This document shows, one piece after another, positions 35,413 to 50,377 of a stretch of DNA of 64,000 nt. Numbering within the stretch: position 1 is the stretch's first letter; every line of letters starts with the position of its first letter. The notes under the pieces are model-generated. The model was given only the letters and a program-made list of their open reading frames with translations. It was not told the DNA's origin and did no database searches. The stretch is from Peristeroidobacter agariperforans (GTDB taxonomy: Bacteria > Pseudomonadota > Gammaproteobacteria > Steroidobacterales > Steroidobacteraceae), in assembly GCF_004138335.1 (NCBI RefSeq), contig NZ_RYFW01000006.1, positions 186,001 through 250,000 of the forward strand, read 5' to 3'. A program made the position numbers and the translations under genes.

Positions 35413-35508
35413 ATGTGAGCGGTTCCTCGCCGGCTCATTGCGCACCGCGCTAAAAAGGCAGTCCTTTTGGCCCAGGACACCTGTCGACGACGGCAGGTTG
35501 CGGTGTCG

Positions 35509-38500
35509 ATGTCCATCATCAAGAACAAGCGGCGCACGGCTGTGCCGAAGCGCCCGCTCAATGGCGTGCTCTCGTCCTTCGTAGTCGCCGGCTTTTCCAG
35601 CGCCGCGCTGGCCAATCCTCAGGGCGCCACGATCGTCGAGGGTTCCGCGACAATAACCCAGAGCAGCGCCAGCCAACTCGACGTCATCTCGACCACTGAT
35701 CGAGCCATCATCAACTGGAATTCCTTTTCGATTGGCAGCGGCGAGCTGACGCGCTTTCAGATGGGCAGCAGCGATAGCGCCGTGCTGAATCGGGTCATAG
35801 GCGGAACGATTTCACAGATCGACGGCTCGCTCACGTCGAACGGCCGCGTCTATCTGATCAATCCGAACGGCGTGATCATCGGCGCCACGGGCATGGTGCA
35901 GACGCAGAGCTTCATCGCCAGCACCCGATACCTCGCCGACGAGGACTTCATGAACGGCGGCGAGATGACCTTCCTCGGCACGGGCTCGGGCGAAGTGCAC
36001 AACCTAGGGACCATCGTCGCCTCGGACGGTGACGTCGCGCTCATTGGCGATCGGGTCGTCAATAGCGGCTCCATCAGCGCCCCGCAAGGCGTCATCGCGC
36101 TCGCCGCGGGCGATGACATCATGCTGGCTGCGCCCGGCTCGTCGCGCCTTCTGGTCCGTGTCGCCGGCGTCACCGACGCCGACGCTGCTCAGATTCAACA
36201 CACCGGCGATCTAAGTGCCGCTCAAGCAGAGTTGCAAGCCGTCGGTGGCAATCTGTATGCGCTCGCCGTCAATGCGGCCGGTGCGATCACCGCGACCGGC
36301 GTCCAGAATCGTGGGGGTCGCATTTATCTCACAGGAAACGCGGCGCAGATCAATGTGACTGGAACGCTGACCGCGCGCAACAGCGACGGCGCCGGCGGCA
36401 GCATCCACATAGATTCCGGCGTCGGTTATGAAAGTGAAGCTCGCGTCACTGGCACGCTCAACGCCTCGTCCACATCGACGGGCGGCAGCATCAACATCGA
36501 TTCGTCTCGCATCGAGCTGAACGATGGCGCTCGCCTGCTCGTCTCGGGCGGCAGCGGCAACGCAGGCGGTGTATTCGTGGGCTCCGAGGAAGACACGAAT
36601 CAAGTGATCGTTGCCGAGGGCGCCAGCATCGAAGCGAATTCGCTGTCCGGCGACGCGGGCAATATCGAGCTCAGCGGCGCCGGAGTCTATTTCCACGGCG
36701 AACTGCACGCGCGTGGCGGAGCATCGCAGGCGCAGTTCAACATCCACTCGGGCGAAGGCGTCGAGTACACCGGTCTCGCGGACCTGCGTGCCTATGGCGA
36801 TGAGGCGCGCTTCGGCTCGGTGAACATCGACAGCGCTTATTCGAATCTGCGCATCGCCCCCACCGACGGCATTCTCCCTGTCCTCGACTCCGACGCGCTC
36901 GCTACGCAGCTGAATTACGGCAATGTGAAGATTGCCGCGAACGGAGCGGGCCGCTACATCGACGTGTTTGCACCGCTGAGCTGGCAGGCCGCCACCCGAC
37001 TCACCTTGCAGGCCGACGACACTGTGGACATCAATCAGGCGATCGACGGCAGCAACGGCGCCTTGCATTTGATCTCACTCAACGCCGCCGTGACGGATCT
37101 CGAGCCCGCGACCATCACGGTCCGCGACCTGTGGCTGTCAGCAGCCGAACAGGTGAATCTCGCGAATCGCGTCGTCGCGCAGAACGTCACGCTTTACGAC
37201 ATCGGCGGCCCCACCTGGCTGACCAATGAGCAGAACCAACTCGGCTCCATCACGTTCATGCGTGACCTGCGCGCGCAGAGCGGCGAAGTCGACATCGTCG
37301 ATAGCGCTGGCGGACTCAGCTTGACCACGAGCAATGTCGGCGGCATCGGCTACTCCACCTACGGCAATTTCCGTGTGCGAACCTCGGGCAATCTGACACT
37401 GGCACCGGAGTTCCACACGCAGGTCGGTGGCGATGTGACTTTGGTTGCGGCCGGTGGCGTGTTACGCAATCAATCCACCGCAGGCGCCAACGTTTTCGGC
37501 ACCTCCTCCACGGGACTCGGCCGCACGCGCGTGTACGCATCTGCCGTCGGCGACAATGGCGGCCTCGAAGGCGCGGCTCAGTACAATGTTTCTTATTCGG
37601 CGGAGCACGAGACCGCCGCCAGCACCGGCTTCTATTACAGCGGCAGCGCGCCGCAGGAGCCAGGCCCATCGGATCCTGGCCCGGTCGATCCTGTCGATCC
37701 TGAAGAACCAGTGGATCCTCCGGATCCGGTCGATCCGCCGGTCATCCCCGAGCCGCCGCCTCTGCCACCATCGCAGATCATCCAGACCGCGCTCGATGGT
37801 AATTCGTTCGAGCAGCTCAGTCGCCCCTCGCCGGACGACTTCTCCCGGCTGGCCGCAAATCTGGGAGTGCTCACGCCGCCTCTGCCACCAGGCGACCCGG
37901 CGAACTGGTCGACCGGGAAAACCGACCAGCTGGAAGCGTTGGCCGAGCTCGCCGACGTCAAAGGCACGAACACCAGCAAGCGACCGATCGGTGCGCCTGA
38001 AAATCAGCCGCCGCCGGAGCGGCTGGAACAGCGGGTCCTCGATCAGATCGAAGATATGGTCGCGCGGCTGAGCGCGTTTCTGCAGGCGGTGCAGAGCGCC
38101 CCTGGCAAGGAAACGGCCGGGATGAGCAGCGCCCAGATCTCGCAGCTGCTGAAATCGATGTCGCCTGAAGTGCTGCAGCTGTTGGGGCAGCAGTCGCCGC
38201 ACATACTGGAACAACAGCTGGCCATCATCATGGCGAAGTTGGCAATGGAACAGCGTAACCGCGCTTTGGATGAACGCCTGGCTGCCCGCGATCAAGCGCT
38301 CCAGGAACTCCAGGAAAAAGCGAACGACATGCGGGAATCAGCGCAGCAGCTGTATTCCGGAGCGATCACTAGTTTGGTCATGTCGGTCGTTCAAGCCGCG
38401 ACGCAGATTGCCGCGAGCCAAGCCGGAGCTGTCAAAACGCCAGTCCTCCGCGATCTCAATCTCCCACAGAAGCCCGATGACACGAAGTTCTCGGCCCCGA

Positions 38501-38607
38501 CGCCCCCACAATTGCCGCAGCACATGCCGCCCGTCTCCTTGCCCTCGGCCGTGCAAGCCCGGCTCGACGCCCTCAGGGCTCTCGAGGCCCTCCAGAACCG
38601 TCCCTGA
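35509..38607 (+). CDS. Two-partner secretion exoprotein (TpsA, filamentous-hemagglutinin N-terminus)
   Basis: A 1032-residue secreted protein. Residues 1-36 are a long basic signal peptide (KNKRRTAVPKRP then hydrophobic to AALA). The TPS secretion domain (about 37-270) carries NSFSIG (71-76) and NPNGV (118-122), the family signatures recognised by TpsB. Residues about 270-710 are Gly/Asn/Asp-rich beta-helix. A Pro/Asp-rich linker (about 718-755) then leads to an unusual mostly alpha-helical C-terminus with a coiled coil (MEQRNRALDERLAARDQALQ) and a hydrophobic helix (GAITSLVMSVVQAATQIAAS). Start ATG at 35509; GTG 35503 is an alternative. Its partner tpsB follows 18 nt later. Confidence 0.9.
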   Translation: MSIIKNKRRTAVPKRPLNGVLSSFVVAGFSSAALANPQGATIVEGSATITQSSASQLDVISTTDRAIINWNSFSIGSGELTRFQMGSSDSAVLNRVIGGTISQIDGSLTSNGRVYLINPNGVIIGATGMVQTQSFIASTRYLADEDFMNGGEMTFLGTGSGEVHNLGTIVASDGDVALIGDRVVNSGSISAPQGVIALAAGDDIMLAAPGSSRLLVRVAGVTDADAAQIQHTGDLSAAQAELQAVGGNLYALAVNAAGAITATGVQNRGGRIYLTGNAAQINVTGTLTARNSDGAGGSIHIDSGVGYESEARVTGTLNASSTSTGGSINIDSSRIELNDGARLLVSGGSGNAGGVFVGSEEDTNQVIVAEGASIEANSLSGDAGNIELSGAGVYFHGELHARGGASQAQFNIHSGEGVEYTGLADLRAYGDEARFGSVNIDSAYSNLRIAPTDGILPVLDSDALATQLNYGNVKIAANGAGRYIDVFAPLSWQAATRLTLQADDTVDINQAIDGSNGALHLISLNAAVTDLEPATITVRDLWLSAAEQVNLANRVVAQNVTLYDIGGPTWLTNEQNQLGSITFMRDLRAQSGEVDIVDSAGGLSLTTSNVGGIGYSTYGNFRVRTSGNLTLAPEFHTQVGGDVTLVAAGGVLRNQSTAGANVFGTSSTGLGRTRVYASAVGDNGGLEGAAQYNVSYSAEHETAASTGFYYSGSAPQEPGPSDPGPVDPVDPEEPVDPPDPVDPPVIPEPPPLPPSQIIQTALDGNSFEQLSRPSPDDFSRLAANLGVLTPPLPPGDPANWSTGKTDQLEALAELADVKGTNTSKRPIGAPENQPPPERLEQRVLDQIEDMVARLSAFLQAVQSAPGKETAGMSSAQISQLLKSMSPEVLQLLGQQSPHILEQQLAIIMAKLAMEQRNRALDERLAARDQALQELQEKANDMRESAQQLYSGAITSLVMSVVQAATQIAASQAGAVKTPVLRDLNLPQKPDDTKFSAPTPPQLPQHMPPVSLPSAVQARLDALRALEALQNRP
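37661..37770 (+). repeat. GATCC-rich Pro-Asp repeat linker in tpsA
   Basis: GATCC recurs six times in about 65 bp, encoding alternating Pro-Asp/Pro-Val units (PVDPVDP, PVDPPDPVDPP). It separates the beta-helical passenger from the helical C-terminus and is a plausible slippage or length-variable site. Confidence 0.75.
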
Positions 38608-38625
38608 GCGCGTCGGAAATAAGAT

Positions 38626-40323
38626 ATGAAACATCTCGCTCTTCTCACTGCGCTCGGCTGCTGGTCTGCTGCTTCTGTCGCGCAGGACTTGAATCGTATT
38701 CAGCCCGCGCCCGTGCCAGCTGTCGAGCCTCCGCCCGTCACTCCGAACGTTGGCGATGCTCCCGGCGCGGCTGCGTCGTCGACGCTGTTGTTGCCCGAGC
38801 TGCGCAGCCTGATCTTCATCAGCAAACCCGAGCAGCTCACTGAAGCGAAGGCAGGCGATGCGGCGGTGGATTCCTCCCGCATCCCGCTGCTCGACAACCA
38901 AACATTCCGCAATCGCATCGAGCCGTATCTCGGCGAGCCGCTGCGTCAGAGCGGACTGAAACGTCTGTTGGCCACTATCAACTTGTTCTACGCCGCCAAT
39001 GACAAGCCCTTCGTGAGCGCAAGCGCGCCTGCGCAGGACGTAACCGACGGAGTGTTGCGTATCCTCGTCGTCGAAGGCCGCGTCGAACAGGTCAAAGTCG
39101 AAGGCAATCGCTACTTTTCCGATGAGCAGTACCTCGCGGCGCTTGGCCTCCGCGCCGGCGATTCGCTGCGGAAATCACAGCTCGAAGCGAACATTGCATG
39201 GGTCAATCGCAACCCGTTCCGTGCAGCCACCATCGTGGCGGCGCCCGGCGAATCCTTCGGCGGCACGAATCTGATCGTTCACGCCAACGAGCGCTATCCC
39301 GTGCGCGTCTACGCCAACGCGGACAACACCGGCTCGCCCAACACCGGCGAAGAACGCCTGGGGCTCGGCGTGAATTGGGGTAATGCCTTCGGACGCGGAC
39401 ATCAACTCAACTATCAGCTGACCAGCAGCGCCGACTTCGATCGTTCCATCGGCCACTCGGCCAGCTATGTCGTGCCCTTGCCGTGGCATCACCTGCTGAC
39501 CTTCAGCGGCGCCTGGTCGCGCATCAATGCCGACGTGCCGGTGGATTTCGATTCGCAGGGCACGTCGTGGCAAACGGCCTTTCGCTACGAAGCGCCGCTG
39601 CAACCCACCGAGCGCGGCTGGAATCAATCGCTGCTCGCGGGCGCCGACTTCAAGCGCTCCGACAACAACCTGGAATTCGGCGGCGTGCCGGTGACCGACA
39701 ACACCACCGATATCGTGCAGGCGGTGCTCGGCTACCGAATGAGCGCCGAAGACAAGTACGGGCGCACCGGCGTCGCCGCCACCGTTGTCTATTCGCCTGG
39801 CTCGATCGGCAGCCGCAACGAGACCCGATATTTCGACATCAGCCGCTGGGGCGCGGAATCGGACTACTCATACGCCCGCATCGATCTGGAGCGCTTGACA
39901 AAGCTGCCCGCCAACTTCGCCTGGCGCTTGACCGCATCGCTGCAAGCCGCGAGCGACAACCTGCTCGGCTCCGAGCAGCTCGCGCTCACGGGCACGTACG
40001 GCGTCAGAGGGTACGGCGAGAACGACAGCTTCGCCGATGGCGGCTACATGATCCGCAACGAGCTGTTGCTGCCGCATGTGAATGCCAGCTCGTTATACGT
40101 GCGCCTGCAGCCGCTGGTGTTCTATGACTATGCCCAGGGCGCGAACAAACGTCTGTTGCCTGGCGAGCGCGACCGCGCCACGTTGAGCAGCGTCGGTCTT
40201 GGCGGCCGCATGGCCTTCGGCCAGTCCTGCGAGTTGCGCTTCGCTTACGGCTGGCAGTTGCACTCGTTGTCCGGCGAGGACCGAGGCGACCAGGCGCACG
40301 CCGGCATCGTCTTCAGCTATTGA
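38626..40323 (+). CDS. Two-partner secretion outer-membrane transporter (TpsB, ShlB/FhaC/HecB type)
   Basis: A 565-residue outer-membrane beta-barrel that exports its TpsA. Signal peptide MKHLALLTALGCWSAASVA; a Pro-rich linker; POTRA domains (about 80-220, with DGVLRILVVEGRVEQVKVEGN at the boundary); then a 16-strand barrel. The conserved barrel motif GVRGYGENDSF is present near residue 459 and the protein ends in FSY, a typical barrel terminus. It is co-transcribed with tpsA. Confidence 0.93.
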   Translation: MKHLALLTALGCWSAASVAQDLNRIQPAPVPAVEPPPVTPNVGDAPGAAASSTLLLPELRSLIFISKPEQLTEAKAGDAAVDSSRIPLLDNQTFRNRIEPYLGEPLRQSGLKRLLATINLFYAANDKPFVSASAPAQDVTDGVLRILVVEGRVEQVKVEGNRYFSDEQYLAALGLRAGDSLRKSQLEANIAWVNRNPFRAATIVAAPGESFGGTNLIVHANERYPVRVYANADNTGSPNTGEERLGLGVNWGNAFGRGHQLNYQLTSSADFDRSIGHSASYVVPLPWHHLLTFSGAWSRINADVPVDFDSQGTSWQTAFRYEAPLQPTERGWNQSLLAGADFKRSDNNLEFGGVPVTDNTTDIVQAVLGYRMSAEDKYGRTGVAATVVYSPGSIGSRNETRYFDISRWGAESDYSYARIDLERLTKLPANFAWRLTASLQAASDNLLGSEQLALTGTYGVRGYGENDSFADGGYMIRNELLLPHVNASSLYVRLQPLVFYDYAQGANKRLLPGERDRATLSSVGLGGRMAFGQSCELRFAYGWQLHSLSGEDRGDQAHAGIVFSY

Positions 40324-41506: not shown

Positions 41507-42580
41507 TCATTCCATGCCGCTTGCCGCGCGCCACTCTTGAACGAGCTGGCTCATCAACACGGCGGCGGGCAACTCCCGAGCTAGCGGCGCAGCTTGCCCC
41601 GCCCAGTACGCTGCGAACTCGTGATTACCCTTGGCGCTGGCTGCCGCGTGCAACGCCTTCGCGGCGTCGTACGCAATCGGATAGTCCGGCAATGCCGGCG
41701 CGCCCGCTTCGACGAGCTCATACATTTGATTTGGAAGACCACGCGCACCGCGACCGGAAATGGCGGCCGTAATGCGAGTGTGGTGCGCACGTTCGCTCTT
41801 CATTTGTTCTCTGTACGCGGCGTTTGCAGATGACTCGGGGCAGAGCACGAACGCAGTGCCCATTTGCACGCCGGCGGCTCCCAATGTCATTGCAGCGACG
41901 ATACCTCGGCCATCCATGATGCCGCCCGCGGCGATGATTGGAACACTGCACTGCTTCACCAGTATTCGAACGAGGGCGAAGGTACCGATGTCATCATCGC
42001 CGCGCGAGGGATCGAACACACCTCGATGACCGCCCGCCTCCACTCCCTGCGCGACGATGGCATCCACGCCGGCGTGCTCACATAGCCTTGCCTCTTCTGC
42101 ATTCGTCGCACACGCCAGCGTTACGATGCCGGCCGCGCGAAACAGCTTGATCCACTCGGGCGATGGCAGCCCGAAATGAAAGCTGACGATCGCCGGCCGC
42201 TCTTCCAGTAACATGGCGAGCATCGGCTCGTTGCCCACGAAGGTCTGATAGATCTCCCGCAATGCTGGCGGTGGCTTCGCACCAAACCTTGCGAACTGCG
42301 GCTCGAGATACGCCAGCCACGCAGCCTCGCGCGTAGCATCAGCCATCGCCGGACGATGGCAGAACAAATTGACGTTGAACGGCCGCGACGTGAGCGCTCG
42401 CGTCGAGCAGATCATCGCGCGAGATTGCTCGACGTTGCTTGCACCGAGCCCCAGCGAGCCCAAACCGCCGCTGTTCGAAACCGCCGCCGCCAACGCCGGC
42501 GTGGATACACCCGCCATCGGCGCCTGGATGATGGGATGCTCGATGCCGAGCAGAGCCAGGAGTGATTGAACGCTACTCAT
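41507..42580 (-). CDS. Nitronate monooxygenase-like FMN enzyme
   Basis: Start [12 protein letters not shown] at 42580; 357 residues. TIM-barrel flavoprotein of the NMO/2-nitropropane dioxygenase family. Motifs: [38 protein letters not shown] (FMN-phosphate site), [15 protein letters not shown] and [12 protein letters not shown]. It oxidises alkyl nitronates in characterised members; some homologues act on other compounds. It lies downstream of the M20 gene on the same strand but behind a strong hairpin, so probably not in that operon. Confidence 0.9.
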
Positions 42581-42604
42581 GCCGCGATGGTAGCGCATGC
42601 GGCG

Positions 42605-42645: not shown

Positions 42646-44238
42646 TCAAGGAGCCGCGCCTGCTGCCACCGCCGATGCCGGGGTGCCCGGATAGGCGATG
42701 CCGAGTTGCTCGAGATAACTGCTGTACTTCTTCGGGTTGTAGTAGTACCTGGTCATCTGCGGGCGGATCCGCTCCATCAGCTCCTTGTTGAGATGAATGG
42801 CGGGCTGATCCGCCGGCGCCAGCACCGGATCGTATTTCATATCCTTCAGTTGCTCGTTGTTGAAGTAATCCTTCGCGCTCGCGAGCAGCGCCGGCGTCGT
42901 CATCATGTCCATCACCGTGAGCGCCACCGCCTTCGCGCCGGTCACCGCGCCTTTGTGAGCAATCGGCGTCGCCATCGCCATGGCAGCGGTGACGTTGTGA
43001 CCGATGGTGTTGGGAATATTCGACGGGAAGCGGATCGTGATCGTCGGCACCGTCCACATGATGTCGCCGATGTCGTCAGAGCCGCCACGCATGGCATTTT
43101 CCTTCGACTCCGGTGTCTGCAGCGGCGCCACCTCGGTCGCAAGCTTTTCCACCTTGAACCCATTCGCCTCTTGCACCGATTTCGCGAACGTCTGATCGGC
43201 CTCGCTCCACTGCGGCATGCCGATGGCCTTCATGTTCTCGTACGCAGCCTCGGCCAGCGGTTTGTTACCGAAATTCGGCGCCGCATAGCCGAGCAAACGT
43301 CGGCTGACCTTCGTGCCAGTCGCCTGCGCGGCCGCCTCCGAAATGGTGTTGCCAACCTCGTACAGATCGCGGATCGCTGCGAACGTCTGATCACGGAAGT
43401 AATACCAGACGGTGCCGACGCCAGGCACGACGTTCGGCTGGCCACCGCCGTTGGTGATCACGTAGTGCGAACGTTGCGTGAGTGGCAGATGCTCACGGCG
43501 CATGTTCCATGCGATGTTCATGAGCTCGACACCGTCGAGCGCGCTACGCCCGGACCACGGTGAACCTGCCGAATGCGCCGTCTTGCCGCTGAACGTGTAC
43601 TCGACGGACACCATGCCGTTGTTGCCGGCCGGTCCCCACGAGGTGCTGAGGTCCTTGCTCACGTGCGTGAAGATGGACGCGTCCACGCCTTGGAACATCC
43701 CGGCGCGGACATAGAACGCCTTGGTGCCTAACAGTTCCTCGGCGACGCCCGGCCAGATCATCAGGCGGCCCTCGATCTTGTTCTTCTCCATCACTTCCTT
43801 GACAGCGAGTGCCGCAGCGACGACGGCCGGCATGCCGGAGTTGTGACCTTCACCATGCCCGGGCGCACCGGCCAATTGTGGTGTGATCGCCGCCGAACCC
43901 GGCACCTGCGACAGACCGAGCAGCGCGTCGATATCGCTGCCGAGCGCGATCGTCGGCCCCGACTTTCCCCACGTCGCGGTCCACGCGGTGGGAATGCCTG
44001 CCACGCCGCGCTCGATAGTGAAGCCATTCTTTTCCAGAATGCCGGTGATGTACTCGGAAGTGCGGAACTCCTGAAAGCCCGGCTCCGCAAAACTGTAGAT
44101 GGAGTCGACCATTTCCTGAACCAGCTTGGCGCGTTTGTCGACGCCTGCGAGGGTCGCCTGCTTCAACTCCGGTGCCGCCTGCGCCAGCACAGCCGGGGCG
44201 AACAGAGCCGTCAGAACTCCAATGCTCGTCTTGATCAC
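42646..44238 (-). CDS. Exported M20-family amidohydrolase (AbgB-like)
   Basis: A 530-residue zinc-dependent amidohydrolase with a signal peptide (IKTSIGVLTALFAPAVLAQA). It belongs to the M20 amidohydrolases similar to p-aminobenzoyl-glutamate hydrolase subunit B. Metal-site motifs: ALGSDIDALLG, GHGEGHNSGMPA, GVAEELLGTK, HVSKDLST, and SNIPNTIGHNVTAAMA near the C-terminus. The characterised relatives cleave N-acyl amino acids or dipeptides. Start codon GTG with GGAG six bases upstream. It lies 42 nt after the TonB receptor, under control of the same glycine riboswitch, so a glycine-yielding substrate is a reasonable inference. Confidence 0.9.
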   Translation of the reverse strand: MIKTSIGVLTALFAPAVLAQAAPELKQATLAGVDKRAKLVQEMVDSIYSFAEPGFQEFRTSEYITGILEKNGFTIERGVAGIPTAWTATWGKSGPTIALGSDIDALLGLSQVPGSAAITPQLAGAPGHGEGHNSGMPAVVAAALAVKEVMEKNKIEGRLMIWPGVAEELLGTKAFYVRAGMFQGVDASIFTHVSKDLSTSWGPAGNNGMVSVEYTFSGKTAHSAGSPWSGRSALDGVELMNIAWNMRREHLPLTQRSHYVITNGGGQPNVVPGVGTVWYYFRDQTFAAIRDLYEVGNTISEAAAQATGTKVSRRLLGYAAPNFGNKPLAEAAYENMKAIGMPQWSEADQTFAKSVQEANGFKVEKLATEVAPLQTPESKENAMRGGSDDIGDIMWTVPTITIRFPSNIPNTIGHNVTAAMAMATPIAHKGAVTGAKAVALTVMDMMTTPALLASAKDYFNNEQLKDMKYDPVLAPADQPAIHLNKELMERIRPQMTRYYYNPKKYSSYLEQLGIAYPGTPASAVAAGAAP

Positions 44239-44280: not shown

Positions 44281-47160
44281 CTAGAACGACATCCGCACGC
44301 CGAGCCGGAAGACCCGCCCCATGGTGTCGTACAGGATGCGATTGGTCTGTGGATACGCCGGCGTGTTGTTGCCATCCGGACCGTTGCCCACCAGCTCCGG
44401 ATCGGTGTTGAGCAGATTGCGGATGGCAAGAAATGCCTCGGCTTCCGCCGGCCCCACCGTGAATGAATACGTGGCCGACGCGTCCAGGTAAAACGCCCCG
44501 TCGATGTCGTTCTCGTCGATCGTGCGATGCTCGACTGTCGACACCGGGCAGTTGCTGGCGCACTCGATGAAGGAGTTGTTGTAAACGCCGCTGCTCACGC
44601 CGCGCCCGATCAGCGTAAACGACAGCATGTCCACCGCATAAGTCGCACTGAGGCGATAACTCCAGCTCGGCGTTGCATTCGCCCCCTGGTTCACACCGGC
44701 ATAATCGATCGGAAAGTCGATGCCGTTGTCCGTGATGTTTTCTATGTAGTGCGTCGCCAGTCCTCGCAGCGTCAGGTCGCCGTGCCCGAGCGCGAGCCGG
44801 TAGCTCGCTTCGATGTCCAGCCCCTTGGTCCTCTGACTGGCGAAGTTGAATGGCACGAGCAGGATCTCCGCGATCTGCTGCACGTCGCCAACTGTAATGT
44901 AGCTGATGTTGTCGCAGAAAGATTGCACATTCTGCTCGAAACATAGATCAACTGTGTTCTGCGCAGTCACTGTGCCGATCGCGTCCTCGATCTCGATGTC
45001 GAAATAGTCCACGGAGAACGCGAGGCCCGCCGCGAACGACGGCGTGACGACCACGCCGATGCCGAGCGACTGTGCCTCCTCCGGCACCAGCGCCAGGCTG
45101 CCCGTCTGCTTTTGTACGAACTGCACTGCCTGATTGCTCGGCGGCACATTGACGGTGTTGGTCCGTGCCGTGCCCGCAGCGAACAGCTCGTTGAGATTCG
45201 GCGCGCGAATATCCTTGGAGCCCGTGACACGCAATTTCACGTCCGCGACAGGCTGATACGTCAGGCCCGCCTTCCACGTCTCGACACTGCCCGAGAGGCT
45301 GTAATCGGTGAACCGCAAGGCGCCGTTGAAATCCAGCCCTTCCCACAGAGGCACCACGGTCTCGATGTAACCTTCCGTGACGTGATAGTCGCCTTTGGTG
45401 ACCAGGTAGTTGCCATAGAGCCAGCCGCTCTGATACTGCGTCTCGACGAAGCCGTCGATCTTCTCTTCGCGCCATTCGCCGCCGAACGCCAGCGACACCG
45501 GGCCTGCCCAGGTGCTGAATATGTTATTGGTCGCGAAGTTGAATGCCGCAACATCCTGCGTCAGCTCCTGCTCGCGATAGGGATTGCTCGGAATGACGTA
45601 GTCGAGAGCAGCTTGCGTTACGCCGCCGATCCCAATGCGGTTGATGGGCACGCAGCCGTTGCCCGGGTCGACAATCGACGAACGGCACACGACCTCCCCG
45701 GTCGTTGGGTGAACGACGGCATCTTGCGCGAGCGCCATGCGCGCGTTGCTCCAAGTGTTGATGAGCTGCTCATTGAGTTTGGCGACGCCTCGCTGTGCAT
45801 AGGCGTCCCAATTCCAGTCCCGGCCGAGCAACGCGAAATCGCCGTCGGCGCCGATGAGATACCGATTCACCTCGCGCTCGTTGTCGCTGCCCGCTGCCGG
45901 AATGCCAGCGTTGGTCGTGCCCATGACGAAGGACGTAATGTCGGGATCGTTCGCCGCGTTGTATTGGGCGATCTGCTGCACAACCGAGGCCGGCAGATAG
46001 GCGTTGTCGGTGCGGATCGTGACGTTGCCGACATTCGGCGTCTGCTGGTAGTAACTGAGGCCCTGGTACTCGTTGTGCGACAGCTGCGCGAATACCGTCA
46101 CCGCCGGCGTCAACTCAAAGCTCGCACGACCGAAGATCGTGCGTCGTTCCTCATCGGGCGCGAGCGAATTGCTGCCCGCGTGGCCCTGACTCGTGTACTG
46201 CCAGTCTCCGCCGATCATCCACGGATTGCTCGCGCTCGTCGTGCCATACGCCAGCCGGCCCACGGTTGCGCGCCCCGTCGCCTGATCGATCGTGCCGAAG
46301 TAAGTGCCTCGCAAGGGTCCACTTACAATCAACCCGCCCGGCGTGTGTTGACTGGGCCCGATGCCAGCCTGCACCAGACGAAAAGGCTGACCGTTGGTCG
46401 CCGTGTAATTGGGATTGTTGATCTGGAAGAAGCCGCCGTCGTTCCAGTCACGATCGATGGTGTGAACACCGTCCTGCGTGAAGTATTCACTACTGAACAG
46501 CACGTGACCGCGCCCGCCGCCGAACGGCATACCGGCCGCGAGCGTGAAAGTGTGATTGGGATTGTCGTCGTAGGTCGTGACGCCATACTCGTAGTCGGTC
46601 TTCACGCCAGTGAAGTCGCGATCGAGGATGAAGTTCACCACGCCGCCGACGGCATCCGAGCCGTAAGCTGCCGAAGCACCGCCCGTGACGATCTCGACGC
46701 GCTCGATCAGCGCTTGCGGAAATGTGTTGATGTCGACCGTGCCGGTCGACGCGGACGCCACCGAACGCTGGCCATCGAGCAGCACCAGCGTGCGATTCGT
46801 GCCCAGCGAACGCAGGTTCAGCGCAGCGATGCCCGCTTGGCCGTTGCTCAGCGCACCTGACGAGTTGGACGCCGTGGCGCTGCCGACGACCGAAGGCAGA
46901 GTATTCACAAAGTCGGCGACGTTGGCCGTGCCCGCAGTCTGGATCTCCTCCGCACCGAGCACGCTCACCGGCGTTGGCGCATCGTAACCGTCACGCGCAA
47001 TGCGAGTGCCGGTGACCGTGACTGAATCGATCGGGCCCTCCATCGCCGATGTTTCCTGCGCTTCGGCATTGAGCGCAGCGAGCGATGCTGATGTCAGCAC
47101 CACTCCGAGACACCTGGAAACAGCAGCACGCAGCGAGAGACAAGACGTGAGCTTCGACAT
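44281..47160 (-). CDS. TonB-dependent outer-membrane receptor
   Basis: A 959-residue receptor with a signal peptide (through LNAEAQE), a plug domain (about 45-175: VTVTGTRIARDGYDAPTPVSVLG, ALNLRSLGTNRTLVLLDGQR, EIVTGGASAAYGSDAVGGVVNF) and a 22-strand barrel ending in VRMSF. The plug type matches large Xanthomonas/Caulobacter-type TBDRs for peptides or carbohydrates rather than a classic siderophore receptor. It is the first gene behind a tandem glycine riboswitch and precedes an exported amidohydrolase. A good ribosome site (GAGGGAG) is at 47174-47168. Substrate inferred, not shown. Confidence 0.93.
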   Translation of the reverse strand: MSKLTSCLSLRAAVSRCLGVVLTSASLAALNAEAQETSAMEGPIDSVTVTGTRIARDGYDAPTPVSVLGAEEIQTAGTANVADFVNTLPSVVGSATASNSSGALSNGQAGIAALNLRSLGTNRTLVLLDGQRSVASASTGTVDINTFPQALIERVEIVTGGASAAYGSDAVGGVVNFILDRDFTGVKTDYEYGVTTYDDNPNHTFTLAAGMPFGGGRGHVLFSSEYFTQDGVHTIDRDWNDGGFFQINNPNYTATNGQPFRLVQAGIGPSQHTPGGLIVSGPLRGTYFGTIDQATGRATVGRLAYGTTSASNPWMIGGDWQYTSQGHAGSNSLAPDEERRTIFGRASFELTPAVTVFAQLSHNEYQGLSYYQQTPNVGNVTIRTDNAYLPASVVQQIAQYNAANDPDITSFVMGTTNAGIPAAGSDNEREVNRYLIGADGDFALLGRDWNWDAYAQRGVAKLNEQLINTWSNARMALAQDAVVHPTTGEVVCRSSIVDPGNGCVPINRIGIGGVTQAALDYVIPSNPYREQELTQDVAAFNFATNNIFSTWAGPVSLAFGGEWREEKIDGFVETQYQSGWLYGNYLVTKGDYHVTEGYIETVVPLWEGLDFNGALRFTDYSLSGSVETWKAGLTYQPVADVKLRVTGSKDIRAPNLNELFAAGTARTNTVNVPPSNQAVQFVQKQTGSLALVPEEAQSLGIGVVVTPSFAAGLAFSVDYFDIEIEDAIGTVTAQNTVDLCFEQNVQSFCDNISYITVGDVQQIAEILLVPFNFASQRTKGLDIEASYRLALGHGDLTLRGLATHYIENITDNGIDFPIDYAGVNQGANATPSWSYRLSATYAVDMLSFTLIGRGVSSGVYNNSFIECASNCPVSTVEHRTIDENDIDGAFYLDASATYSFTVGPAEAEAFLAIRNLLNTDPELVGNGPDGNNTPAYPQTNRILYDTMGRVFRLGVRMSF

Positions 47161-47220
47161 GACTCAACTCCCTCAGCACGGACAAAGCGGCGCCGCCCTT
47201 TATTTCTAGGGTTGTTTGCG

Positions 47221-47424
47221 CCGCTCCCGCTGTCCTGGTACCTGAGAGTTTCCGCACGACTTTCAAGGTCGCGCTTGCCCCGTCGGTGGAGACGCGTGCC
47301 TGCTCGCGCCTCGCTCTTCAGACGGCATTACAGATCCGCAGTACTTGAGCCTGAGAGTTCATGGGAGATTGCTCCTTCGGCGGAGCGCCGGCGTCGCCGC
47401 CGGCGCTCGCTCTCCTGCGAATCC
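47221..47424 (-). ncRNA. Tandem glycine riboswitch (gcvT element), both aptamers
   Basis: On the minus strand the leader contains two glycine aptamers. Aptamer 1: GGAGAG (47415-47410), CCGAAGGAGCAA (47380-47369), ACTCTCAGG (47358-47350). Aptamer 2: GAAGAGCG (47319-47312), CACCGACGGGGCAAGC (47288-47273), and the hallmark ACTCTCAGGTACCAGGACAG (47249-47230). The core of aptamer 2 is nearly consensus; the linker between the two is longer and less conserved than usual. Downstream, GCGGCGC (47224-47218) can pair with GCGCCGC (47193-47187) followed by UUU, a likely expression-platform stem before the ribosome site. It sits before the TonB receptor, not before gcv genes. Confidence 0.93.
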
Positions 47425-47429
47425 GAGCT

Positions 47430-47448
47430 CATACAAGCATCTTGTATG
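47430..47448. promoter_or_regulatory. 19-bp operator-like palindrome upstream of the riboswitch
   Basis: Perfect dyad CATACAAG-CAT-CTTGTATG directly before aptamer 1. The half-site CTTGTAT is of the kind bound by GntR-family regulators, so transcription from this leader may be controlled by a protein in addition to the riboswitch. No regulator gene lies adjacent. Confidence 0.5.
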
Positions 47449-47727: not shown

Positions 47728-49290
47728 TTACTGTGCGTTCTCGTCGATGAACGTCTTGATGTGTTCGCTGAACTTGCCCATCGAGCCGGGATGCACGTAC
47801 ATCATGTGGCCCGCCTCGTAGAGCTCGAGCTGCACATTACGCCGCAGCTCCGGCGTGATGTTGAGATGATCGATGGCGTGCTTCACGGTGCCGTACGGGC
47901 ATGCGAGGTCGAAATAGCCCGACTGCACCAGCACCTTCATCTTCGGGTTCATGGTCATCGCGTAAGAAATATCGGGCAGCACGTTCGCGTACGGGACCTT
48001 CTGGCCGTTGGTATCGGGCTGCACGTGACTCACATCCCAATCCTTGTACAGACCGGCCGAGAGCTCGTACTTCAGTTCCGAGCGGACGTTCAGTTCGTCA
48101 CGAACGTAAGCGTTGTAAGTGGCGACGACGGCCGGCGCAACGGCGCTCGCATACGGATCGAACGCGGTCGTTTCGGCAATCCGGCTCGGCATGCCGCCGG
48201 CGAAGCGTGAATCGATGCGACCGATCGTCTTGCCTTGGGCGCGCATCAGCTCTTGCAGAAAATGGTTCTCGTCCATGCGCAGGTTGGCAGCGTCCCAGTA
48301 CGCAGCATTCACGCCTGTGTAGCGTGCGAGACCCTCGAGCGCTGCCTGACGCTCTTCAGGCGTGGCTCGCGCGCCCTTGTAGAGGATGGGGTGATAGACG
48401 GTGTCGATCCACTGCTCCACTTCGCGCAGGAACGGCAACAGCTCGGGCGGTTGTGGGTTGAGCGCCTTGTGGTACCAGGCCGTTGCGGCATACGTGGACA
48501 TGAAGTTGGAGTCGCCCGCGTCCGTGTTCAGGCCGGCCGTGCCACTGACGAAGTCCAGGTAAGGCGACACCAGGATGATGCCGTTCAACGCCACGTTGTG
48601 ACGGGTCAGCAAGTCGTACGTCACGCCGCCGGTGCGGATGCCGCCGTAGCTTTCGCCGAGCACGAATTTCGGACTCGCCCAACGCCGGTACTCGCCGAGG
48701 TATCGCACGATGAAGTCGGACACCGACTTGATGTCGTTGTCCACGCCCCAGAACTGCTTGCCCTCGGCCTTGCCGACCGGGCGTGAGAAGCCGGTGCCGA
48801 CCGGATCGATCAACACCAGATCGGCGCGATCCAGAAAACTGTACTCGTTGTCCACGAGCTTGAAGGGACCACGCGTATTGCTGGCGAGATCCTCGATCGC
48901 CGCGCGGCGCGGGCCGAGAATGCCCATGTGCAGCCACGCCGAGGCCGACCCCGGACCGCCATTGTATGCAAACACGATCGGACGGGTGCCCGCATTCTGG
49001 CCCTGGCGGACATAAGCGGTGAAGCCGAACAGCGCGATCGGTTCGTCCTTCTCGTCCTTCATCAGCAGCGTGCCGGTGGTAGCCTCGTAGTCGATGGCCT
49101 TGCCGCCGATGCGAATCTGATGGCGCGAGGTCCACACCTTCGCCTCGGGCTTCGGCTTCTCCTGCTTATCCACAGCCTCCTTCTTTTCCTGCTCGGCGGG
49201 CGGCGTGGGCTCGGAGGCGGCGTTGGATACAATAGGGGCTGCGAGCCAGACAAAGGCAGCGAGCGCGGCGGCGACGCCATGCTTTTTCAT
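47728..49290 (-). CDS. Secreted S10-family serine carboxypeptidase
   Basis: Start at MKKHGVAAALAAF (49290), giving a 520-residue protein with a signal peptide ending near SNAA and a Lys/Glu/Pro-rich linker. The S10 active site is complete: NGGPGSASAWLHMG, nucleophile Ser in GESYGGIRTGG, catalytic Asp in SGYFDLACPYG and His in YEAGHMMYVH. Such enzymes release C-terminal amino acids from peptides. It lies upstream of, and in the same direction as, the glycine-riboswitch-controlled receptor/amidohydrolase pair, so a peptide-scavenging role is a reasonable inference. Confidence 0.92.
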   Translation of the reverse strand: MKKHGVAAALAAFVWLAAPIVSNAASEPTPPAEQEKKEAVDKQEKPKPEAKVWTSRHQIRIGGKAIDYEATTGTLLMKDEKDEPIALFGFTAYVRQGQNAGTRPIVFAYNGGPGSASAWLHMGILGPRRAAIEDLASNTRGPFKLVDNEYSFLDRADLVLIDPVGTGFSRPVGKAEGKQFWGVDNDIKSVSDFIVRYLGEYRRWASPKFVLGESYGGIRTGGVTYDLLTRHNVALNGIILVSPYLDFVSGTAGLNTDAGDSNFMSTYAATAWYHKALNPQPPELLPFLREVEQWIDTVYHPILYKGARATPEERQAALEGLARYTGVNAAYWDAANLRMDENHFLQELMRAQGKTIGRIDSRFAGGMPSRIAETTAFDPYASAVAPAVVATYNAYVRDELNVRSELKYELSAGLYKDWDVSHVQPDTNGQKVPYANVLPDISYAMTMNPKMKVLVQSGYFDLACPYGTVKHAIDHLNITPELRRNVQLELYEAGHMMYVHPGSMGKFSEHIKTFIDENAQ

Positions 49291-49414
49291 CTTGCGGTCT
49301 ACCCGTGGTGATTCAGGGGCGGCAAGTATATTTGCGTCGCCAGTGCATGACGAGCGAATGCGCCTCGGCGTGCAGGTCGATGACAAAGGTTTCATTCGAG
49401 CTCGAGGAACGTCG

Positions 49415-50377
49415 ATGGCCAAGGGACTCTTCAGTCAATCCGTGTGTCTGCTGACCGACGGTCAGGCCACACTGCTCGAGGTGACGTCGGCGCTGCAGAG
49501 ACACAGCTTCGAAATCGTCAAAGAAATACGGCCCCTCAAGCAGTGGCAGTTTGGCGGTCCTGCGGTGGTAGTCGGCTACCGCCCCGAAGTGAACGGCTGT
49601 GCGATCCTCGATCTGGTCAACAGGCCCTGGCCCGACACGATGGGGCATCCGGAGTCCGATACGACGACATTCGGCGCGTGGTCGATGGGCCACTTCGGTC
49701 CCTGGACGTTTCCTAACGGATTGCAGCGTGCCAGACAGCATGCGTGGTCCTGGGCCGCGGGCCGGAGCATCGCAGACGCGCACTCCGGATTCATCCGCAT
49801 CCGGCTCAGATATGCGGTCGGCGCCGCCGAGGGTGCGCCGCTATTGCCCGCGAACTACGATCCTGTCGATGAGCTGAACTTCCTGAGTCGTTTGGTGCTG
49901 GCCGCAGGTGAAGCGGCCGGCGTGTTGTGCTATTTCAATCCGAACGGCGAAGTGTTGCGAGATCACGCCGGCTTCTCGAGAGTGTGGCGGGATTGTGCGG
50001 CGGACGAGCTGATTCCTTTGCCGCTGTGGACCAACGTTCGCCTGTTCCAGCTCACCGACCAGCTCGCGCTGATGGACACGGTCGGCAACAGCCAACTGGA
50101 CCGTATGGACATCGAAGCCATCTTCGCCAGCGACGAGTACGAACCTTCGAATGTCGATAACTATTTGCGCAACGTGTCGCTTTATCTGCTCCACTCCAAT
50201 CCCGAATTCGAGACCGGACAAACGATGGACGGCCCCGGTGCCACAGGCTCGTCGTGGGCGATCGATGTGCTGGACGCAGGCTTGGTGAACCCGCCCCGCA
50301 AGGTCCTGCGGCTGTATCCGAAGCGACATGCGGCTGCAGTAGCCGATGCAGTGGCAAGCGCGGGTGCACGATGCTGA
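49415..50377 (+). CDS. Conserved hypothetical protein, possibly DUF4261-like
   Basis: ATG at 49415 with GAGGAA six bases before it; 320 residues (MAKGLFSQSVCLLTDGQ). A soluble alpha/beta protein with VVVGYRPEVNGCAILDLVNRPWPD, ARQHAWSWAAGRS, AGVLCYFNPNGEVL, LWTNVRLFQL and a Pro-rich C-terminus (NPPRKVLRLYPKR). The pattern reminds me of DUF4261 proteins, but I am not certain. Earlier in-frame starts overlap the divergent carboxypeptidase signal region and are unlikely. Its stop overlaps the start of the next gene by 7 nt. Confidence 0.7.
   Translation: MAKGLFSQSVCLLTDGQATLLEVTSALQRHSFEIVKEIRPLKQWQFGGPAVVVGYRPEVNGCAILDLVNRPWPDTMGHPESDTTTFGAWSMGHFGPWTFPNGLQRARQHAWSWAAGRSIADAHSGFIRIRLRYAVGAAEGAPLLPANYDPVDELNFLSRLVLAAGEAAGVLCYFNPNGEVLRDHAGFSRVWRDCAADELIPLPLWTNVRLFQLTDQLALMDTVGNSQLDRMDIEAIFASDEYEPSNVDNYLRNVSLYLLHSNPEFETGQTMDGPGATGSSWAIDVLDAGLVNPPRKVLRLYPKRHAAAVADAVASAGARC

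Follow-up and report, generated by a model that had tools for sequence, protein, structure and literature searches.

A stretch of 64,000 nucleotides from Peristeroidobacter agariperforans (contig NZ_RYFW01000006.1, positions 186,001 to 250,000; the window hereafter) carries a tandem glycine riboswitch leader in front of a gene for a TonB-dependent receptor (TBDR), followed by a gene for a putatively exported M20 amidohydrolase. The leader is conserved together with this gene pair in related species, and glycine riboswitches precede TBDR genes in another class as well. All window features discussed here are on the minus strand. The riboswitch class is known; the new part is its target and a predicted feed-forward role. 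The interpretation that we favour, with chances that we rate slightly better than even, is that the riboswitch acts as a translational ON switch of a TBDR-M20 operon, for feed-forward control by peptides. At low glycine, the 3' strand of aptamer 2 would pair with the Shine-Dalgarno (SD) region and translation would be blocked; upon glycine binding this strand would be held within aptamer 2, the SD would be freed, and receptor and hydrolase would be made. The operon would import and cleave short peptides or similar amide-linked compounds, with rising cytoplasmic glycine indicating the presence of peptide nutrient, and it would act alongside the glycine-cleavage operon that bears the other glycine riboswitch of the genome.

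A known riboswitch class has probably been recruited to receptor-peptidase operons, where it would exert feed-forward control of peptide scavenging. If this is true, the glycine riboswitch regulon, known from glycine metabolism and amino-acid transport, also covers import across the outer membrane together with the cleavage of peptides. Orphan TonB receptors would gain a hint to their substrates, namely peptides or amino acids in other amide linkages, and there would be a case of a riboswitch for which a breakdown product signals the nutrient.

The tandem leader and its conservation

Aptamer 1 is recognised by the Rfam model RF00504 at 47427-47329 with 54 bits (E 2.5e-8, gathering score 32), the sole Rfam match above the gathering score in the window, and retains the canonical blocks. 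Aptamer 2 gave no RF00504 match at E<=1 in a permissive search of the leader. Because RF00504 alone failed here, it was dropped as a detector of aptamer 2, and a covariance model (R1) was trained on 21 of the 37 listed second aptamers of RF00504 sites elsewhere. Its training set contains no Steroidobacter TBDR leaders, while two members (L197, L199) come from TBDR leaders of family f217, which is presumably the Caulobacteraceae and belongs to the same phylum as the window but to another class. R1 matches 47332-47220 with 54.4 bits (E 6e-12), as its sole match in the window at E<=1, and delimits a divergent aptamer 2 whose P1 has a bulged U. The orthologous leaders of Steroidobacter agaridevorans (G001; the window genome is G000) and of the genus relative G011 score 56.6 and 47.3 bits, respectively. 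The second aptamer of the tandem was therefore established through R1 and not through RF00504.

An earlier note on this DNA, made from the sequence alone, had recognised a tandem glycine riboswitch ahead of a TBDR and an exported M20 enzyme, which our searches bear out. The block ACTCTCAGGTACCAGGACAG that it quoted is indeed present in the leader on the minus strand. Its statement that all conserved blocks of both aptamers are present holds for aptamer 1 but is a little too strong for aptamer 2, which has GAAGAG and CCGACGG in place of the usual GGAGAG and CCGAAGG; the RF00504 search that it proposed likewise recovers only the first aptamer.

Such changes in usually conserved blocks, including CCGTCGG in aptamer 2 of G011, could indicate that the aptamers now recognise, in place of glycine, a related compound that the hydrolase sets free. 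However, the canonical blocks are kept in aptamer 1, and both GAAGAG and CCGACGG also occur among RF00504-accepted second aptamers at other sites, so that we regard a ligand shift as highly improbable. A search of the complete window genome with RF00504 returned three matches, which are the window aptamer and a tandem elsewhere that precedes a gene read as gcvT from its sequence.

The unit of leader, TBDR and M20 gene is present in three of the 14 genus genomes searched (G000, G001, G011). Across the three species pairs the leaders are 94.1, 87.9 and 89.1% identical, compared to 91.4, 82.5 and 83.4% for the receptor coding sequence, so that the leader exceeds the receptor gene in conservation in every comparison; the 300 bases beyond the leader on its upstream side are only 60-76% identical with many gaps. 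This pattern bears on the idea that the leader is vestigial, i.e., a gcv leader that was copied before the receptor and lost its regulation. The divergence of aptamer 2 below RF00504 detection and the restriction of the unit to three of 14 genomes would fit such a history. Loss of regulation is nevertheless very unlikely in view of the stronger conservation of the leader and of the proposed SD-blocking strand described below, in which 18 of 19 bases are identical across the three species. Judged from its sequence, the tandem glycine riboswitch leader is genuine and conserved, and it presumably binds glycine.

A predicted switching helix and the direction of control

The receptor gene starts 59 bases past the modelled end of aptamer 2. 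In unconstrained folds of all three orthologous leaders, the 3' strand of aptamer 2 (core and P1 side, 47230-47251) pairs with the strand TGTCCGTGCTGAGGGAGTT (47166-47184), which includes the SD sequence GAGGGAG at 47168-47174. Duplex calculations gave 17 pairs in G000 and 16 in G011, and 14 of the 15 unpaired values of the SD bases GGGAG across the three leaders are below 0.1. Of 1000 dinucleotide shuffles, 4 attain the energy of the window duplex (-21.3 kcal/mol); for the three leaders the counts are 4, 4 and 5 of 1000, which are not independent because the leaders are related. Among 129 upstream sequences used as a gene-start null, the lowest value of -21.3 is presumably the leader itself, and the next is -19.7. 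A first null of this kind was dropped, as it comprised only 16 upstream sequences, two to three of which lay at the leaders' energies and were presumably the leaders themselves. By comparison, 49-956 of 1000 shuffles reach the duplex energy in seven of the 13 genus gcv leaders fetched, in all of which gcvT is present (tblastn, copy of the window genome as query).

Since the alternative helix joins the core of aptamer 2 to the SD, it predicts a translational ON switch, and modelling supports this prediction in part. When aptamer 2 is locked by imposing its P1 and keeping its core unpaired, the seven SD bases become more open on average, with means going from 0.28 to 0.47, from 0.28 to 0.44 and from 0.27 to 0.37 in the three leaders. 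A similar SD-covering helix is found in three f217 leaders of a receptor group with about 900 aa (TBDR900, see below), with a two-sided change between G15-C31 (L199) and A15-U29 (L197, L225); 8, 67 and 35 of 1000 shuffles reach its energy in these three leaders. An intrinsic terminator as expression platform was rejected. The apical GC-rich hairpin (approximately 47186-47225, from folds of the three leaders) is followed by only UUU in G000 and by fewer U in G001 and G011; a terminator-like site is absent between aptamer and ATG, and the U-tract is not kept in the orthologues.

Besides the relatedness of the leaders behind the shuffle counts, several observations weigh against translational ON control as proposed here. 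Several SD bases pair with other parts of the leader despite the locked aptamer 2: the unpaired values of three of them remain at 0.01, 0.01 and 0.07 in G011, and those of three of the seven do not exceed 0.23 in either G000 or G001. The modelled cost of locking is 12.5-16 kcal/mol at the level of secondary structure, more than ligand binding is expected to pay for, barring kinetic folding or a contribution from tertiary contacts. The 5' end of the folded leaders is assumed, and the switching helix, being almost unchanged between the three species, shows no covariation there. Seven other TBDR900 leaders are matched by 56-904 of 1000 shuffles, so that support for the helix is weak or absent there. 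In the checked leaders of a second f217 group with 800-aa receptors (TBDR800), the receptor starts about 270-290 bases past aptamer 2; the logic may therefore differ, or the receptor could have its own promoter. Finally, R1, the sole model applied to 80 loci with relatives of the window receptor, found an aptamer only in S. agaridevorans (1/80, E<=0.1; in L047, L049, L076, L078, L081 and L083 the available DNA begins less than 300 bases from the receptor match), which restricts the link between riboswitch and receptor to a few species.

The partial pairing of the SD in the locked model would also suit an OFF switch, in which glycine represses the receptor and the operon would serve to scavenge glycine or peptides until its end product turns it off. 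This is in line with PMC6944388, which in its available parts describes transport contexts as OFF and glycine catabolism as ON. The same source describes aptamer 1 as more conserved in GCV contexts, however, and RF00504 scores aptamer 1 of the window well and misses aptamer 2. As the predicted helix between aptamer 2 core and SD points to ON control, we consider an OFF switch unlikely, though deserving attention.

A second layer of control may act on the same leader. Just upstream of aptamer 1, at 47431-47447, lies the perfect palindrome ATACAAG-N3-CTTGTAT, which may be a transcription factor operator. It is a single site in the 7.65 Mb window genome at up to one mismatch (0 for the backwards control), is retained in S. 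agaridevorans, and is nearly retained in G011, where it lies farther upstream.

Receptor, hydrolase and their neighbourhood

The receptor gene (44281-47160, 959 aa) encodes Plug (PF07715, 7e-20) and TonB_dep_Rec beta-barrel (PF00593, 1e-32) domains, both over their cut-offs, and its product is 95% identical to a receptor of S. agaridevorans. The M20 gene (42646-44238, 530 aa) follows in the same direction 42 bases downstream, beyond the interval 44281-47424 treated in the earlier note, and is probably co-transcribed with the receptor. It encodes an M20D-type amidohydrolase (NCBIfam TIGR01891, 169 bits against a cut-off of 153.75; PF07687). By eye, the N-termini of both proteins and of the S10 carboxypeptidase mentioned below read as signal peptides, which suggests export. 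The candidate metal ligands of the hydrolase (H128/E130/H132, E167/E168, H192 and H414, positions that we presume from the family) are kept in all eight aligned relatives. The same eight share the motifs HGEGHN and AEE, with Glu in HGEGHN where aligned Xaa-Arg dipeptidases have Cys. Nearest among solved structures by sequence are Xaa-Arg dipeptidase, HmrA and an aminobenzoyl-glutamate utilisation protein.

Upstream of the leader stands a gene for a putatively exported S10 serine carboxypeptidase (47728-49422, PF00450). An M20 orthologue of at least 88% identity is present in four of the 14 genus genomes, and in the fourth of these (G003) an S10 gene 87% identical to that of the window stands directly before the M20 gene. 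At this site R1 found no aptamer, and the receptor match is limited to a weak one of 22% on the opposite strand. On account of the S10 gene adjoining M20 in G003, the S10 carboxypeptidase, the TBDR and the M20 enzyme look like one peptide-use set. This adjacency and the identity of the nearest solved M20 relatives make short peptides a more likely substrate than hippurate or N-acyl-glycines. The earlier note had suggested a glycine-tuned route for importing or cleaving Gly-peptides or N-acyl-glycines. A general link between glycine and the import or cleavage of amide-bonded nutrients is likely, because the leader is conserved with the gene pair and other TBDR-hydrolase pairs carry the riboswitch, but we found no pointer specifically to hippurate or N-acyl-glycines.

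Neighbouring TBDR and M20 genes also exist without the riboswitch, one such pair in Sphingomonas sp. 7/4-4 (L005) and another elsewhere in the S. agaridevorans genome (L140). The riboswitch therefore looks like an addition to a pre-existing pair. R1 found no aptamer at any of five loci with M20 relatives (L137, L138, L005, L139, L140). At a further locus (L014), a receptor 51% identical to that of the window lies between DadA-like and M20-peptidase-like genes, as read from sequence, and R1 found no aptamer there.

Downstream of the M20 gene, a nitronate monooxygenase (NMO)-family gene (41507-42598, PF03060, 3e-81) is a possible third operon member. Its counterpart in S. agaridevorans (91%) stands in the same position, and none was found in stretch L117 of G011. 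A search at E<=1e-8 of 12 kb from G011 recovered neither this NMO gene nor the S10 and LacI genes of the window neighbourhood, yet the leader is retained. Farther downstream (35467-40323) lie a gene whose product reads, from its sequence, as a large protein of the filamentous-haemagglutinin type and, after it, one for a ShlB/FhaC-type transporter (Pfam).

Recurrence in another class and relation to known systems

The earlier note had cautioned that similar receptor associations may exist elsewhere, and rightly so. RF00504 sites were listed in searches of relatives, the order, the phylum and two families, and selected sites were fetched with their downstream genes. At least 22 further riboswitch-TBDR sites are present in at least 21 of 149 genomes of f217, a lower bound because the sites were picked among the matches listed, the larger genome searches were filtered more strictly, and receptor-rich places were fetched more. 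For the same reasons the fractions of picked sites with a receptor downstream are not frequencies: 1/40 in one set (of which L170, with no gene of at least 130 aa on the strand, is left unclassified), 10/20 in f217, and 11/13 in further f217 regions. In family f228, a receptor is downstream in none of the 20 picked sites, where gcv or DadA-like genes, read from sequence, stand instead. G037, with RF00504 matches on two contigs, was rejected as a second locus, as these read as variant forms of a single leader, the genome having 7% contamination.

The further receptors form four groups, and a hydrolase gene follows in three of them (16 of 22 sites). The TBDR900 group (10 sites) is followed by an S9 peptidase in nine, the contig of L197 ending within the receptor. 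In the TBDR800 group (9 sites), an M19 dipeptidase was found in five; it was not found at L181, including the longer stretch L203, and only about 930 bases past the receptor were available for this search in L183, L185 and L191. Receptors of about 850 aa are followed by an S45 amidase at both sites, and a single 964-aa receptor (L235) belongs to a riboswitch-TBDR unit that is immediately followed by another glycine riboswitch with gcvT. S9 and M19 were counted by tblastn. Pfam was run on S9 proteins from L201 (the L199 site) and L225, on M19 from L153 and L187, and on S45 from L193 and L233; an N-terminal fragment (241 aa) of the S9 protein at L199 had no Pfam match.

Receptors of the 900-aa group are 31-34% identical to the window receptor, the 850-aa group matches it over about 235 residues only, and neither the five of nine 800-aa receptors compared nor the 964-aa receptor match it at E<=1e-3. 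Because the nearer relatives of the window receptor (L005, L006, L014) lack an aptamer by R1, repeated recruitment of the riboswitch is the likelier history. That receptor and exported-hydrolase operons (M20, S9, M19, S45) independently recruited feed-forward glycine sensors several times, in two classes of Pseudomonadota, is a broader proposition on which we are evenly divided.

Other contexts of the riboswitch were encountered along the way. Genome G1090 (L187, L188, L234) has three glycine riboswitch loci, with gcvT, TBDR plus M19, and TBDR plus S9. At 18 of 60 fetched sites, the glycine riboswitch stands before a gene that reads, from sequence only, as a DadA-like FAD amino-acid dehydrogenase (L141, L144, L148, L151, L155, L156, L158, L160, L172, L173, L178, L205, L207, L209, L210, L213, L216, L217). 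In L174 it precedes glutamine-synthetase-like and aldehyde-dehydrogenase-like genes, read in the same manner.

The targets of glycine riboswitches given in the available parts of the literature are glycine metabolism, glycine transport and serine metabolism (PMC3766115), with serC, glcB and genes of COG4198 of unknown role added in PMC2211319, and gcv genes, glyA and sdhA under glycine in Table 2 of PMC12452182. No link between a glycine riboswitch and a TonB receptor was found in the portions of the literature searched; supplementary tables lay outside the search, and a prior listing there is therefore possible. Where 'glycine riboswitch' and 'TonB' were both mentioned in these portions, the terms were unconnected.

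The window leader shares its aptamer class and tandem layout with the gcvT tandem glycine riboswitch (RF00504), of which the window genome has one too. It differs in preceding an outer-membrane receptor and a putatively exported hydrolase, in its divergent aptamer 2, and in an SD-covering helix for which the seven genus gcv leaders tested gave no shuffle support. In its available part, PMC13104608 reports that gcvT of Neisseria gonorrhoeae has a tandem glycine riboswitch acting as a translational ON switch. The Sphingomonas pair introduced above (L005) has the same gene order, with a receptor 54% and a hydrolase 72% identical to those of the window, but no second aptamer by R1. Transporter glycine riboswitches resemble our case in the glycine-linked control of an uptake function, but their targets are amino-acid transporters and they are described as OFF in the accessible text of PMC6944388 and PMC3766115, whereas an outer-membrane receptor with a hydrolase, and ON control, are predicted here. 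The control of a TonB receptor by a riboswitch is paralleled by cobalamin riboswitches, of which that of Escherichia coli btuB acts on the SD, according to the available parts of PMC5756330, PMC5770649 and PMC13104608. These have another aptamer and ligand, are OFF switches, and respond to the imported compound itself rather than to its breakdown product, as we propose for the TBDR-M20 operon.

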